DNA from: Deltaproteobacteria bacterium | GTDB lineage: Bacteria > Desulfobacterota > Desulfomonilia > Desulfomonilales > Desulfomonilaceae | NCBI GenBank assembly: GCA_023474025.1 | Contig: JAMCYH010000301.1 | Span: forward strand, 1 to 33,829 | Length of the DNA: 33,829 bases | Direction: 5' to 3' | Shown: positions 923-31,050 of the stretch, piece after piece | Layout of the letters: every line of letters begins with the position of its first letter | Position numbering within the stretch: position 1 is the first letter of the stretch | The notes under the pieces: generated by a model | Database searches by the model: none | What the model was told of the DNA's origin: nothing | Seen by the model: the letters and a program-made list of their open reading frames with translations, nothing else | Made by a program: the position numbers and the translations under genes

Positions 923-1279
923 TTAGAAAGTAAAAACCTTCGAATCTACCGCCAAAGTGATTAGTGTCTTGGATGTGTCAAGCTTAGCATTCTCCAGGAG
1001 GTCCGTCTCGTCAACCTGACGAGATTTGGCACAGGGCACTCAAACGTAGAAAGGGACTTTGGCTTGCCTCAAGTGTTCCAAATAGGTGCTAGCGTCGTCT
1101 CCAGTAGTGGCCACAACGTTCTCCGCCATACCCTTCTTTGCCAGGAACACGGCGTCATCAGTGAGAAAAACCTTGACTTCATGTCCTTCCTGCTTGGCCA
1201 CGTGTGCTAATTGCAAACATCTGGTGGCCCTGGTAGGATCTTCTAAGCCTCGTGTGAGAACAAACAAAAAATCTGCCAT
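923..1279 (-). CDS. DsrE-like selenoprotein (in-frame TGA read as selenocysteine)
   Basis: The first 79 codons encode a DsrE-family fold (MADFLFVLTRGLEDPTRA..., ending KVPFYV). A TGA follows at 1040-1042. The same frame then stays open for 38 more codons (VPCAKSRQVDETDLLENAKL...) to a TAA at 923-925, giving 118 residues, the usual size of DsrE-like proteins. Relatives carry Cys-x-Pro-Cys-Ala-Lys at this point, so the TGA sits where the first cysteine of a CxxC pair is expected, giving Sec80-Val-Pro-Cys83. A perfect stem-loop lies just after the TGA. The start ATG at 1279 has AGGAGGT upstream. DsrE proteins act in sulfur relay or small-thiol redox chemistry; the exact partner is unknown. DsrE-like selenoproteins have, to my knowledge, been reported in deltaproteobacterial selenoproteome surveys. 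A plain TGA stop would leave a truncated protein lacking the redox motif. Confidence 0.8.
1006..1042 (-). promoter_or_regulatory. Bacterial SECIS element
   Basis: On the minus strand, the TGA (1042-1040) is followed by 15 bases and then TCTCGTCA-GGT-TGACGAGA (1024-1006), a perfect 8-bp stem with a GGU loop. The loop begins 23 bases after the UGA. Bacterial SECIS elements are known as stem-loops immediately 3' of the UGA, with the apical loop roughly 16-37 bases away and a G in the first two loop positions. All three conditions are met. It would bind SelB charged with Sec-tRNA; selA, selB, selC and selD are not in this window. Confidence 0.75.
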
Positions 1280-1373
1280 TAGTCGTACCTCCTCGAAAGA
1301 TTATAATTTGGAACACAAGTCCTACGGGAACAAAACTTTACTCATCATAACGGCCTAATTGTTGAAGCATTGT

Positions 1374-1422: not shown

Positions 1423-1695
1423 TTACTTTATCGATTCTTTGAGGCTCTTTACGGCGCTAAACTTAGGCGCTTTGGTTTCCGGGATGTTGAGTTTTTCTTT
1501 GGTGTGTGGGTTTAAGCCGGACCGCGCTTTTCTAGTAATTATGGAGAATTTTCCAAAACCCGGGATGGAGATCTCCTCGCCGGCGGCCAACCCTTCTGCC
1601 ATGGTATCGAAAATCAAGTCTATGGCTTCAGTAGCCAGCTTCTTTGTTATCTTGCCCTTCTCAGCAAGCTTGTCCACAAATTCAGCCTTTGTCAT
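1423..1695 (-). CDS. HU-family histone-like DNA-binding protein
   Basis: A 90-residue protein starting MTKAEFVDKLAEKGKITKK. It carries the HU/IHF features in order: the N-terminal helical dimerisation region (residues 1-40), the GEEISIPGFGKFSIITR strand pair, and the DNA-binding arm beginning RKARSGLNPHTKE, ending KAPKFSAVKSLKESI. HU dimers bend and compact DNA in the nucleoid. The start at 1695 is preferred over an upstream in-frame start at 1734 because GGGAGG lies just upstream of it and family members begin here. It is encoded alone, downstream of a hypothetical gene on the same strand. Confidence 0.93.
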   Translation of the reverse strand: MTKAEFVDKLAEKGKITKKLATEAIDLIFDTMAEGLAAGEEISIPGFGKFSIITRKARSGLNPHTKEKLNIPETKAPKFSAVKSLKESIK

Positions 1696-1898
1696 GTCCG
1701 TTCCTCCCTCGAAATTGTAATAGTGTCCAACCAAAAATATGAATTGGGGCTATATAAGGCACTGGCGTATTGGGTGTCAAAAGGAATGAACGTAGATCAA
1801 GACACGATGACGATTGTACGGTATCTTGGACAACCTAGAATACGCCAATCATATGGACGTGGTGAGGGTCGACACGCCGCCACGTCCTCTGGCAAAAG

Positions 1899-3669: not shown

Positions 3670-4877
3670 CTTCTTCGCGCCTATGGTGAGCATTACCGCG
3701 GAAAGTATCCAATGAGTCCTGAGCAGCGAAAGGCGACGCAAGACATTGAAACCTGTCGGACCCAGTCCCTGGGCGGCCATGTGGACATATGTGAGGACGG
3801 GTGTGGATACCAGCGTATCTCGTACAATTCCTGCCGGAACCGGCACTGCCCGAAATGCCAAGGCTTGCAGAGCATGCGCTGGGTCCAACAAAGACTTGAA
3901 AGAATCCTTCCCATACCCTACTTTCACATGGTCTTCACTGTTCCGCATGAACTGCACCCAATCATCCTCCAAAACCAGCAAACCCTCTACAAACTCCTGT
4001 TCCAGGCCGCTGCCAAATCTCTGCTCGAATTCGCACTAAAGTGGCGCCGCTCGCGAGCAGAAGTGGGATTCACAGCTAGACTCCATACCTGGAATCAGGA
4101 TATCCTCTTCCATCCTCATCTCCACCTCATCGTGACATGCGGCGGCCTGGACCAGACTCACACCAGATGGATTCATTCACGAGACAATTTCCTTGTCCCT
4201 GTGCGCCCCCTCTCCAAAATCTTCCGAGGCAAGCTGCTCGACTTTCTCAAAAGGCTTTTGCCAAAAACGTGCTCCGTTTCCAGGCAGATCTCCAACACTT
4301 TCAGAAATCGCATGCCTTTCAGCGTCTTATCAGGAAGCTCTACCGCAAGAAATAGGTGGTCTACTGTAAACGCCCTTTTGGAGGCCCTGAGCGAGTCCTT
4401 AAATACCTAGGGCTCTATACGCACAAAGTTGCCATCTCCAACCATCGTCTAGTTGAAATCAATTCCGGTATGGTTACTTTCCTTGCCAGAGACAATCACA
4501 ATCCGGGCAAAAGACGATCCGTTTGTCTGCCTGCTGATAAGTTTATCAAAAGATTCCTGATCCACATCCTCCCCTCAGGCTTCGTCAAGATCCGACACTA
4601 CGGATTGATGGCTCATAAAAACACAAAGACTAGCCTAGAAAAAGCCAGAACGCTTATCGAAGAAACTCTAGAGAGACCGCCTGAAATGGTCTCATCATCA
4701 TGCCCTAAGGGACCATCCAAAGCACGGGCCACAACGTGGTTAGAAATGCTATTCAAGATCACCGGAATAGACCTGGCGACATGTCCGAACTGCGGGGGAA
4801 AACTCGTTCGACAGCCACTAACCGTCCTAGAAAACCTCCAAACTCCACCACGCCCTTACCTTCTGGACTCATCATGA
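3670..4877 (+). pseudogene. IS91-family (HUH, Y2) transposase, inactivated
   Basis: The frame from about 3670 (LRAYGEHYRGKYP, then the ATG at 3712) shows the N-terminal zinc-binding region with CRTQSLGGHVD and YNSCRNRHCPKCQ, then FHMVFTVPHEL and the HUH nuclease motif HPHLH at 4111-4125. The homologous reading shifts frame near the AAAA at about 4248-4253 (LDFLK to KAFAKNVLRFQ), then meets a TAG at 4353-4355 where the family has Trp before VVYCKRPFGGP. The last part has YLGLY (the paired tyrosines), THKVAISNHR, RHYGL and a C-terminal CPNCG. A TAA at 3667 also precedes the recognisable N-terminus. IS91-type enzymes move DNA by rolling-circle transposition; with a frameshift and a nonsense codon this copy cannot make a full protein. 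Confidence 0.85.
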
Positions 4878-10242: not shown

Positions 10243-10404
10243 GCGCCGTCCAGGTTTGATCCAGGCTATAACGTGATCTAACCCAAACAGGAGCAGTATG
10301 TTGTGTCTCAGAGAGATAGTGCTGGCAACAGCCCAGACCGAAGGACCCCAAAGCGGGTCTGTGGTCTCAAATGATGGCTACTGATGAGAGAGGAAGGCAA
10401 CCCC

Positions 10405-11184
10405 ATGAAGAACCAAGAAGTTCTAAAAATCGATGATATCTGGCTAAGCTTCGGTGGGGTACATGTATTACGTGGAGTAAGTCTTGCTGTTAGGCCGCAT
10501 GAGATCTTGGCCATTATTGGGCCGAACGGCGCAGGCAAGACCTGCATCCTCAATTGCGTTAATGCGTTTTATCGGCCGCAGAAAGGGCGCATTTTTTTCG
10601 ATAGTGTTGAAATTACCCACATGGCGCCTGACAAAATCTGTGCAATGGGTGCAGCGAGGGTTTTCCAGAACATCGAACTTTATGCCGGCTTGACCACCTT
10701 GGAAAACCTCATGGCTGCCAGGCATTCCAAGATGAAGCAGTCTATTTTGTCACAAGCTATTTGGTACGGGCCAGCCAGAAACGAAGAAGTCCGCCAGAGA
10801 GAGAGCGTGGAACTCATAATCGATTTTTAGAACTTCTAAGGCATAAGGAATCAGGTTGTTGGGATGCTTCCATACGGATTGAGGAAGCGGGTAGAACTCG
10901 GCAGAGCTTTAGCCCTGGAACCTAAGATATTGTTGCTTGACGAGCCGATGGCCGGGATGAACCTGGAAGAAAAGGAAGATATGACGAGGTTTGTTTTGGA
11001 CGCTGCCGAGAGTGGAGGGTTTCCGGTGGTGCTCGTCGAGCATGACATGGGAGTGGTGATGGATATTGCCGACCGGCTTGTCGTAATAGATAACGGTATG
11101 GTGTTGACGGAAGGTACGCCCAGCGAGATTTCCTCTAACTCAAAGGTGGTCGAGGCCTACATGGGGAGTGACGAATTATGGTAG
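10405..11184 (+). pseudogene. livG: LivG-type ABC ATPase gene with interrupted reading frame
   Basis: The N-terminal half (MKNQEVLKIDDIWLSFGG..., Walker A GPNGAGKT at residues 39-46) ends at TAG 10828-10830. The C-terminal half, with LPYGLRKRVELGRAL in place of the ABC signature and Walker B ILLLDEPMAGMN, runs to 11184. Both are in the same frame, separated by TAG and TAA (10837). In the +1 frame between them, the sequence reads DF-LELLRHKE, which is what LivG proteins have before xxVGxLPYG. Two compensating single-base indels (near the T5 run at about 10823-10827 and near 10845-10850) therefore explain the break. If these are sequencing errors the gene is a normal livG of about 260 residues; if real, the importer lacks one ATPase. 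It overlaps the next gene by 7 bases. Confidence 0.8.
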
Positions 11185-27612: not shown

Positions 27613-28533
27613 TTATCCGCCAACGCTCGTTGACAGTCCAAGGTGTTCAAACACTTTTACGATTTCCGCCACTTCAGCCTTTGATGGAACACTGACGCAT
27701 TTCATTAGATCCGGCTGGGGATAGCCAAGTTCTCGCCTCTTGGCGTCACCTAACCGGTGATAAGGAAGAATATGGATTTCCCTCGCGCCCAGCGTTTTTA
27801 GCCTTTTTCCTAAATTTTTGACATGAGTCGTGTCGTCGTTAACCCCCGGAATGAGGGGAAAGCGTGGAATCCATCGCACTCGGTTCGTCCGAGACAACTG
27901 TTCCAAATTCCGTTGGATTAGACGGTTCCCTACCCCTGCGAGATTTTTGTGGCGCTTAGAATCTAAATGTTTTACGTCAAACAAAACCAATTCAACGTGG
28001 GATATTAATTCAGCAAACCTTTCTTCTGGAAGGTGACCGTTGGTCTCTAAAGCTCTATGGAATTTTCGTCTACCGGCCTCTTCCAGAAGGGCTTGGAGAA
28101 ACTTAGACTGGACTGTCGGCTCACCACCCGAAAACGTGATACCACCGCCAGAATTTTCAAAAAAAACCCGGTCTGATTCTGTCTTTTGCATCACTTCGTC
28201 CACCGTCATCCACGTTCCTATTGGGCGTAAAGCCCTTGATGGACAAACTTGCGTACAAGCCATGCACGTCTGGCACGCCTTCCAATCAAACGTAGGAATT
28301 GACGGTGTCCGAAGAATGGCGTTGAAAGAACATGCGTCAGCGCATAAACCACAGTGGATGCAGCGTGTTTCACTATATGAGAGTTCAGGATTCATAGAAA
28401 TCGATTCTGGGTTCTGGCACCAGACGCACTTAAGGTTGCACCCTTTGAAAAAAACTACCGTACGTATTCCAGGACCGTCGTGGACACAAAAACTTTGGAT
28501 GTCAAATATTAGGCCCTTTGGTGTCGGTTCCAT
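27613..28533 (-). CDS. Glycyl radical enzyme activating enzyme (radical SAM)
   Basis: A protein of about 306 residues. The radical SAM motif Cys32-x3-Cys36-x2-Cys39 lies in FFKGCNLKCVWCQNPES after the typical IFDIQSFCVHDGPGIRT. An inserted two-cluster ferredoxin domain follows, with CIHCGLCADAC and CQTCMACTQVCP, as in activases of the non-formate-lyase (PFL2) group. SGGEPTVQ is the SAM-binding GGE. It reduces SAM to a 5'-deoxyadenosyl radical that takes an H atom from Gly804 of the partner encoded just upstream, whose stop codon lies 12 bases before the first possible start of this gene (GTG 28548). The start is set at ATG 28533; the GTG lacks a ribosome site. Confidence 0.93.
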   Translation of the reverse strand: MEPTPKGLIFDIQSFCVHDGPGIRTVVFFKGCNLKCVWCQNPESISMNPELSYSETRCIHCGLCADACSFNAILRTPSIPTFDWKACQTCMACTQVCPSRALRPIGTWMTVDEVMQKTESDRVFFENSGGGITFSGGEPTVQSKFLQALLEEAGRRKFHRALETNGHLPEERFAELISHVELVLFDVKHLDSKRHKNLAGVGNRLIQRNLEQLSRTNRVRWIPRFPLIPGVNDDTTHVKNLGKRLKTLGAREIHILPYHRLGDAKRRELGYPQPDLMKCVSVPSKAEVAEIVKVFEHLGLSTSVGG

Positions 28534-28560
28534 GCGTAGATATAACACCTCTAAATTAGC

Positions 28561-31050
28561 TTACAATATTGTATGTTCGGTCCTGTCAATAATGTCATCC
28601 TGCAATTCTCTGGGAAGACCAGTGAAATAAGCGCTGTAACCCGCAACCCGAACAAGCAAATCCTGGTGTGCTTCAGGACGCTGTTGCGCTTGACGTAATT
28701 TTTCAGCGCTGACAATGTTAAACTGACAATGCCATACATTTAGTTTGACAAAACTTTGCAGGAAGCTCACAAAGTTGGCCAACCCTTTTTCTCCTGCGAC
28801 TACCTGAGGGGGAAATTTGAGGTTTAGAATTGAACCGCCTGACAACTTTGCGTGATCCATCTTGCCAACTGATTTTAGAACCGCCGTCGGACCACGCTGG
28901 TCTAGGTTGTGGACTGGACCAATACCATCCGCAAGAGGCATCCCTGCTTTGCGTCCGTTTGGAAAAGCTCCCAACACCTGACCGAAAGGCCAGTGTGAAG
29001 AAACTGAACCAAACCCAGGCTGGAAATCACCTCCAAAATAGCTTTTGTGCTGTCGGAACTCATCAGTTAATATGAACAGAACATCTCGGGCTAAATCATC
29101 CGCATATTTGTCATCATTGCCGTAATGTGGCGCATAATTTACCAACTTTTGTCGCAATACTTCGTTATTCTCGAAATTATCATCTAATGCGCACAACAGT
29201 TCCTGCATAGGGACTGTCTTATCCTCAAAAACTAGTTTTTTGATAGCCGCAAGCGAATCAGCCACATCAGCAAGACCTACCGCTCTAAAGGACATCCCCA
29301 GATTGTAAATCGCTCCGCCATTCGTTTTATCAGTTCCATTCTCCAAGCAACCTTTTATGAGAGAACTCAAATAAGGGGTCGGACTATAATGCTTCTGCAA
29401 ATACTCGACCTTAACCGCCATTCCAAGGTGTATTCGGATCATGTGTCGGAATTGCTTGTCAAAAGCGTCCCACAGCTCGTCAAATGATGTGAAATTTCGA
29501 GGATCCCCTGTCTGAATCGAAATCCGTTTATTCGCCCGTCGCCAAACCCCATTGGTTAACGTAAATTCAAGGGCTGCGCCTACATTGAAATAGCCGCCGT
29601 TATGAGAACCCTTCCCGCATCCTGAGACTTGAACTCCCACGCATCCTACTGAGCTGTAGTTTCGAGCGTCTTCTATTGATATACCATTGTCCACCAGCGC
29701 AGGAATTACTATCTCATCGTTGAAAAATGAAGGGTGACCCGTACCAATCCGCGCCAGTTCACACGCCTTACGAAGGAGGTCTTTAGGAGAATCTTTGTGT
29801 AGACGAACTGTTATACTGGGCTGATGAAGCCGAGTGTTCATAGATGCCTGGATACATTGGTAAGTGAGGGCATTGCTTGCGTCAAGACCATCAGGAGTAA
29901 GGCCGCCAACAGGGATTTGTTGCTGTACGGGGAATCCAGCGGCAAGTTTACTGTACGAACCCCAGTTGATGAAATTAGTTTCCCCTAACTTTAACCATAA
30001 ACAATCAAGCAGTTCCTGCGCTTGATGAGTGGAAAGAACCCCTTGGCTTAAATCCCTTTCATAAAAGGGATATAGATAGTTGTCCATTCGACCAAGAGAG
30101 CAACATCTGTCATATTCCTCTTGTAAAATGCCTACATAGGTGAACCAGACGGCCTGAAGCGCCTCATGAAAACTAGTGGGAGGCGAGCCAGGCACCCTCG
30201 CGCAGATTTCACTAATTTTGTAAAGTTCCTGTCGACGTCTGGGATCCGCCTCTTTTGTGGCCATCATCTCGGCAAGCTTGGCAAAGCGTAACCCGAACCC
30301 AATCATTCCCTCACAACATTCTATAACCGCCTGGTAAAAGATATCCCGCTCCACATTGGTTTCGGGTAAACCCCTTGACCACTCTAGCTTAGCAATGGCT
30401 TCTTCCCTAATGCCTCGAAAGCCCTTTTCGAGCACTTTTGGAAAATCTAGTGTGATATGTCCCCCTGTGCCAAAAAGAGCCGGACTCAGACTCATGATCC
30501 CGGTCCCCTTGGAGAAATTTTCCAGTTCTGAAAAGATAAATTCCTTTTCTTCAGAACTTAATAAAGAAGCAAACCTTTCTACAGAGGATTTCCCCGTCCA
30601 ATAAGGGAGAATTTTTTCTTGTAGCTCAGTCTTATCCGCATCGGTAATTTCAAATGGATCGGGCCGGCGCGCAGATATTGAATTCAATTCGTTTGATATT
30701 AAGTCACCAGAATCTTCCGGAAAGACCGGGTATCCACGAGGGCGTGAGGATAAAGAACCTACGATGAGTTCATCTTCGTAAATGTTGACAGGAATTAGAT
30801 TTAGAATTCTACGGAACGCCCCAGCTTTTTGTAAAATTAATGGTAAGGAGCGGTTTTTGGCTTCATTATAATAGTCGAAGACTATTCGGGCCCGTTCGAC
30901 ACAAATTGATGGACTATTCTCGAAAAAGCGTTTCCTTAGCCTACGAATGCGTGGTGACGCCGAAATACCCACCAAAACATCTTGCGGTAAATCCCTAAGG
31001 GGACCCGCCAAATGACTAATTTCAGTTTTTTCTATTTTTAATGTCTGCAT
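28561..31050 (-). CDS. Glycyl radical enzyme of the PFL2 group, reaction unknown
   Basis: An 829-residue protein with the two-domain PFL/GRE layout. The radical site is Gly804 in LLVRVAGYSAYFT, 25 residues from the end. The thiyl cysteine is Cys470 in RNYSSVGCVGVQVSG. In choline lyase, diol and hydroxyproline dehydratases, isethionate lyase and arylacetate decarboxylases this loop reads GCVEP, with the Glu acting in acid-base chemistry; here it is GCVGV. There is no small subunit gene, unlike hydroxyphenylacetate decarboxylase or benzylsuccinate synthase. The activase follows 27 bases downstream, iclR precedes by 20 bases, and a Liv importer completes the operon. No microcompartment or aldehyde dehydrogenase genes are present. 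AAGGAG precedes the ATG. It is a GRE with high confidence; the substrate cannot be named. Confidence 0.95.
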   Translation of the reverse strand: MQTLKIEKTEISHLAGPLRDLPQDVLVGISASPRIRRLRKRFFENSPSICVERARIVFDYYNEAKNRSLPLILQKAGAFRRILNLIPVNIYEDELIVGSLSSRPRGYPVFPEDSGDLISNELNSISARRPDPFEITDADKTELQEKILPYWTGKSSVERFASLLSSEEKEFIFSELENFSKGTGIMSLSPALFGTGGHITLDFPKVLEKGFRGIREEAIAKLEWSRGLPETNVERDIFYQAVIECCEGMIGFGLRFAKLAEMMATKEADPRRRQELYKISEICARVPGSPPTSFHEALQAVWFTYVGILQEEYDRCCSLGRMDNYLYPFYERDLSQGVLSTHQAQELLDCLWLKLGETNFINWGSYSKLAAGFPVQQQIPVGGLTPDGLDASNALTYQCIQASMNTRLHQPSITVRLHKDSPKDLLRKACELARIGTGHPSFFNDEIVIPALVDNGISIEDARNYSSVGCVGVQVSGCGKGSHNGGYFNVGAALEFTLTNGVWRRANKRISIQTGDPRNFTSFDELWDAFDKQFRHMIRIHLGMAVKVEYLQKHYSPTPYLSSLIKGCLENGTDKTNGGAIYNLGMSFRAVGLADVADSLAAIKKLVFEDKTVPMQELLCALDDNFENNEVLRQKLVNYAPHYGNDDKYADDLARDVLFILTDEFRQHKSYFGGDFQPGFGSVSSHWPFGQVLGAFPNGRKAGMPLADGIGPVHNLDQRGPTAVLKSVGKMDHAKLSGGSILNLKFPPQVVAGEKGLANFVSFLQSFVKLNVWHCQFNIVSAEKLRQAQQRPEAHQDLLVRVAGYSAYFTGLPRELQDDIIDRTEHTIL

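Follow-up and report, generated by a model that had tools for sequence, protein, structure and literature searches.

An in-frame TGA interrupts a small gene in this stretch of DNA, raising the question of whether the codon ends the protein or places selenocysteine (Sec) within it. The gene lies at 923–1279 on the minus strand of the window, by which we mean the whole stretch of 33,829 nucleotides that was analyzed. It opens with an ATG at 1279–1277, meets the TGA at 1042–1040 as codon 80, and closes with a TAA at 925–923. Translation through the TGA gives a product of 118 residues with the motif Sec80-Val-Pro-Cys83 (U80-V-P-C83), and a Shine-Dalgarno-like GGAGG (CGAGGAGGT, 1286–1294, minus strand) lies 5' of the ATG. 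The sequence-only reading of this locus, which proposed a DsrE-like selenoprotein with a SECIS hairpin, had its coordinates and counts right; it left out the strand. Elsewhere in the window TGA is an ordinary stop in 9 of 25 genes, so there is no general recoding of the codon.

The machinery for Sec insertion, which the sequence-only reading had suggested looking for, is present in the host genome. It includes a tRNA-Sec scoring 68.4 bits, over the family cut-off, together with selA, selB and a selD truncated at the edge of its contig. Because the assembly is a draft of 353 contigs (completeness 85.9%, contamination 4.85%), these genes are found on contigs other than the one carrying the selenoprotein gene. 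An in-frame TGA also occurs in the host's formate dehydrogenase alpha genes, and among 11 genomes with the TGA form of the family, selA was found in all 11 and tRNA-Sec in 9. Several relatives (G010, G017, G127 and G046) contain, besides the main one, a second, weaker tRNA-Sec match of 52–58 bits, over the cut-off. Such a match might mark an unusual paralogue of tRNA-Sec, or else a tRNA whose variable arm is long. The nearest named relatives of the host are Syntrophaceae and Desulfomonile assemblies. The host encodes dsrA, next to which lies a weaker match, as dsrB would give, and a dsrC in which both C-terminal cysteines are present; dissimilatory sulfate/sulfite reduction is therefore very likely. 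The selenoprotein family has one copy in this genome, where two further, more remote matches to the DsrE domain also occur.

Were the TGA a true stop, a sequencing error or the sign of a decayed copy, the frame beyond it would be accidental. In favor of such a reading, a gene finder would end the gene at this codon, and the genome is a draft. The homologues argue otherwise. Matches were found in 44 of the 198 related genomes searched, and 80 further loci came from a named collection, which was scanned with a narrowed alignment as the initial one was too diverse. At the 111 matched places codon 80 is TGA in 41, TGC in 37 and TGT in 33, and nothing else; the same three codons account for all 105 distinct sequences (37 Sec, 68 Cys). 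The in-frame TGA, at the U of a UxxC motif, aligns with the Cys of the homologues, and the 41 TGA loci span many species, sit always at this Cys column and keep the downstream frame; the cultured species Desulfacinum infernum, D. hydrothermale and Desulfotomaculum copahuensis are among those with the TGA form. Every member without the TGA has Cys at position 80, as had been anticipated. The early-ending homologues and degraded frames that the sequence-only reading named as grounds against itself were not seen: homologues extend past position 80, and relatives at 60–98% identity retain both the TGA and the frame that follows. With Sec machinery present and a hairpin conserved in the TGA forms only, as described below, we give a stop, error or decay next to no credence; the comparative data refute it.

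The candidate SECIS hairpin (1006–1024, minus strand) is a perfect 8-bp stem closed by a GGU loop (TCTCGTCA-GGT-TGACGAGA), and it begins exactly 15 nt past the TGA, just where it had been described. As in bacterial SECIS elements, the apical loop contains a G and the hairpin lies shortly past the TGA. This exact stem arises in 0.35% of random synonymous recodings of the same peptide, and any 8-bp stem starting 11–20 nt past the TGA arises in 0.9%. The folding energy of the 52-nt SECIS segment is ordinary compared with shuffles (z = 0.16), so energy is not the evidence here, and the hairpin alone would prove little. An Rfam search of the window returned no match at gathering scores.

Comparative conservation, by contrast, offers strong evidence that the hairpin is a SECIS element. 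The mean number of paired stem positions is 6.49 of 8 in Sec forms versus 3.0 in Cys forms, a difference reached by none of 10,000 label permutations, and sliding the stem partner by 1–3 bases lowers the Sec-form mean to 1.5–3.5. Across the 37 distinct TGA homologues, 240 of 296 stem cells are paired, a count reached by none of 2000 shuffles, which ignore kinship among the sequences. The stem-building codons CGT, CAG, GAC and GAG hardly vary among Sec forms but vary freely among Cys forms, and the inner stem is maintained by two-sided changes in distant TGA members (loci L089 and L042). Machinery, homologues and hairpin conservation together uphold the DsrE-like selenoprotein reading, and comparison makes it almost certain that the gene encodes a selenoprotein with a DsrE-type active site, a confidence that excludes the substrate. 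The earlier count of four independent signals overstated one of them, a palindrome (AACGGTGTT/AACACCGTT) about 40–58 nt past the TAA, which is irrelevant to Sec. The palindrome is terminator-like, at 882–865 on the minus strand (AACGGTGTTAACACCGTT, then GGTTTTATT), has an imperfect T tract, and was picked out by a pattern scan, which is weak evidence.

Reading on through the TGA also completes the DsrE domain, as had been claimed; the domain is of the DsrE/DsrF-like type. The Pfam DsrE model (PF02635, cut-off 22.7 bits) scores 39.5 bits on the part before the TGA and 68.9 bits on the whole product with Cys at position 80. In the AlphaFold model (mean pLDDT 96.7), residue 80 ends a strand, a helix begins at residue 81, and two domain strands are encoded past the TGA. 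At the UGA of a bacterial selenoprotein gene, Sec insertion and termination compete, and on that general ground a 79-residue cut product might also be produced in useful amounts and serve as a second isoform, for example at low selenium. Such a product would end ahead of the active site and miss the final two domain strands, and we regard its use as very improbable. Foldseek matched the full-length model to 3mc3, YchN (1jx7), DsrE (2hy5) and TusD (2d1p), and a profile search aligned column 80 to Cys78 of DsrE (2hy5_A). We can thus predict with high confidence that the read-through product is a DsrE/YchN domain in which Sec80 occupies the column that holds the catalytic Cys78 in DsrE and TusD. 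The TusD equivalog model fell far short on it, at 25.3 bits against a cut-off of 89.25. YchN, likewise a DsrE fold of one domain, matches the present protein in length and has a CxxC in the position of the UxxC; it has Cys where the present protein has Sec, and the two share about 23% identity.

These comparisons suggest how the protein may be made and act. SelB, guided by the hairpin past the UGA, would deliver Sec-tRNA at codon 80, and the product would adopt a 118-residue, single-domain DsrE/YchN fold with a Sec80-x-x-Cys83 active site. Sec80 would stand where DsrE and TusD have Cys78, the catalytic residue that carries sulfur; in Allochromatium, DsrE Cys78 carries sulfur and passes it to DsrC (PMC3397948). 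The Sec80 selenol would most likely bind sulfane sulfur or attack a disulfide, persulfide or polysulfide; Cys83 could then resolve the resulting Se-S adduct through a Sec-Cys bridge. The protein would work in the cytoplasm of an anaerobe that reduces sulfate, as a sulfur-carrier or reductase component. We infer this chemistry, as we do the substrate and any partner (DsrC, for instance). The most likely role is that of a stand-alone sulfur-carrying or reducing protein with a Sec80/Cys83 pair in a sulfate reducer, and we give sulfur transfer and thiol-disulfide reduction roughly equal weight as its main activity.

The sulfurtransferase subunits DsrE and TusD have the same fold and align their catalytic Cys78 with Sec80. 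Unlike them, the present protein has an additional Cys three residues on, and its gene stands alone, with neither DsrF/DsrH nor TusB/TusC beside it. This CxxC-type motif, absent from DsrE/TusD, means that the protein might work chiefly as a thiol oxidoreductase and not as a carrier: a real selenoprotein, but one that acts through UxxC as a general thiol-disulfide or peroxide-type oxidoreductase and does not carry sulfur or selenium. The UxxC lies where a strand ends and a helix starts, a placement shared with redox-active CxxC folds, and DsrE-like selenoproteins have been classed with thiol-oxidoreductase homologues (PMC1794560, PMC1088965). However, the fold and active-site column agree with the sulfur-carrying DsrE/TusD, and the family members come mainly from sulfur-cycling anaerobes. 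We rate a purely oxidoreductase function as a serious contender, somewhat short of an even chance.

There is no conserved neighborhood to hint at a substrate or sulfur-transfer partner. Clustering of the neighborhoods of the 80 named loci revealed no recurring partner gene, and the partner subunits DsrF/DsrH were not found beside the gene, either in the window or among the neighboring genes of relatives. Directly upstream on the same strand is a gene for an HU/IHF-type DNA-binding protein (1423–1734, minus strand; PF00216). A near relative (L050) shows the same adjacency, more distant ones do not, and we therefore claim no functional link. Some TGA loci have redox or Fe-S neighbors (NifU-like, CGGC, FMN reductase); these are few, locus-specific and lack a background comparison, so we draw no function from them.

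The family has switched between Sec and Cys repeatedly, with at least nine changes on the best tree of 104 sequences, only two of which are forced by well-supported branches. The residue that follows codon 80 differs between the two forms. In 37 distinct Sec sequences residue 81 is nearly always I or V, with L, P or A in rare cases, and in 68 distinct Cys sequences it is T, K or E, with zero overlap, apparently an unreported detail. In an independent-pairs test of residue 81 against Sec/Cys, only two pairs fell on well-supported branches, which puts significance out of reach. Shared descent would account for part of the pattern, which we present as an observation rather than proven coupling; the link between residues 81 and 80 is a concrete, testable point. 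It could be that Sec80, as a selenosulfide where DsrE has its Cys78 persulfide, relays sulfur within sulfate reduction (e.g. to DsrC), with the hydrophobic residue after Sec, versus Thr/Lys after Cys, reflecting an altered active-site chemistry that co-evolves with the U/C switch. We consider this unlikely; if true, the selenosulfide would be a selenium-based step in a sulfur relay. At one TGA-form locus (L094), codon 83 departs from the motif, which reads U-V-P-S and so lacks the second Cys, and the SECIS stem is retained; such a variant would have no Cys to resolve the adduct.

Earlier lists of selenoproteins include DsrE-like UxxC members from the Sargasso Sea (2005, PMC1088965), from Desulfovibrio vulgaris (2006, PMC1794560) and, as two groups, from GOS data (PMC2398784). 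Reviews of 2022 and 2026 include them and describe the functions of such proteins as largely uncharacterized (PMC9312934, PMC13188914). With publications going back to 2005, the gene adds a member to a known family, and the unusual redox or transfer role first suggested for it loses its unusualness; selenium/sulfur transfer may still be its role. The published proteins (e.g. WP_014524487.1) have the same Pfam domain (PF02635), a UxxC and a SECIS right past the UGA, and likewise occur in sulfate-reducing Deltaproteobacteria. The present gene represents a new species and sequence, likened to them by description and not by alignment. The selenium-linked YedF/FdhU, composed of SirA-like and DsrE-like domains (PMC5322559), shares the DsrE-like domain with a redox motif and the selenium link; the present protein differs in that it has no SirA-like domain, would carry Sec itself, and is not encoded next to sel genes. 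In the literature we found, the function of the family is not worked out since the 2005 listing. A gene that standard gene finders would truncate is shown here to encode a full selenoprotein, and a large Sec/Cys set with repeated switches helps to ask why sulfate reducers bear the cost of selenium in a protein that handles sulfur.

Three further regions of the window drew our attention. At 10384–11184 (plus strand), a LivG-like ABC transporter ATPase gene is split by two in-frame stops (TAG and TAA, at about 10828–10840) near a T5 run; an alternate frame holds plausible coding sequence, making a compensating pair of indels, through assembly error or mutation, likely. A transposase-like gene at 3712–4877 (plus strand) occupies two overlapping frames, with ORFs of 232 and 173 aa, and judging by its translations is probably a frameshifted IS91-like element. 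At 27613–31050 (minus strand) lies a PFL-like glycyl radical enzyme of 829 aa with a radical-SAM activase, beside a branched-chain-type ABC transporter set and an IclR-like regulator.
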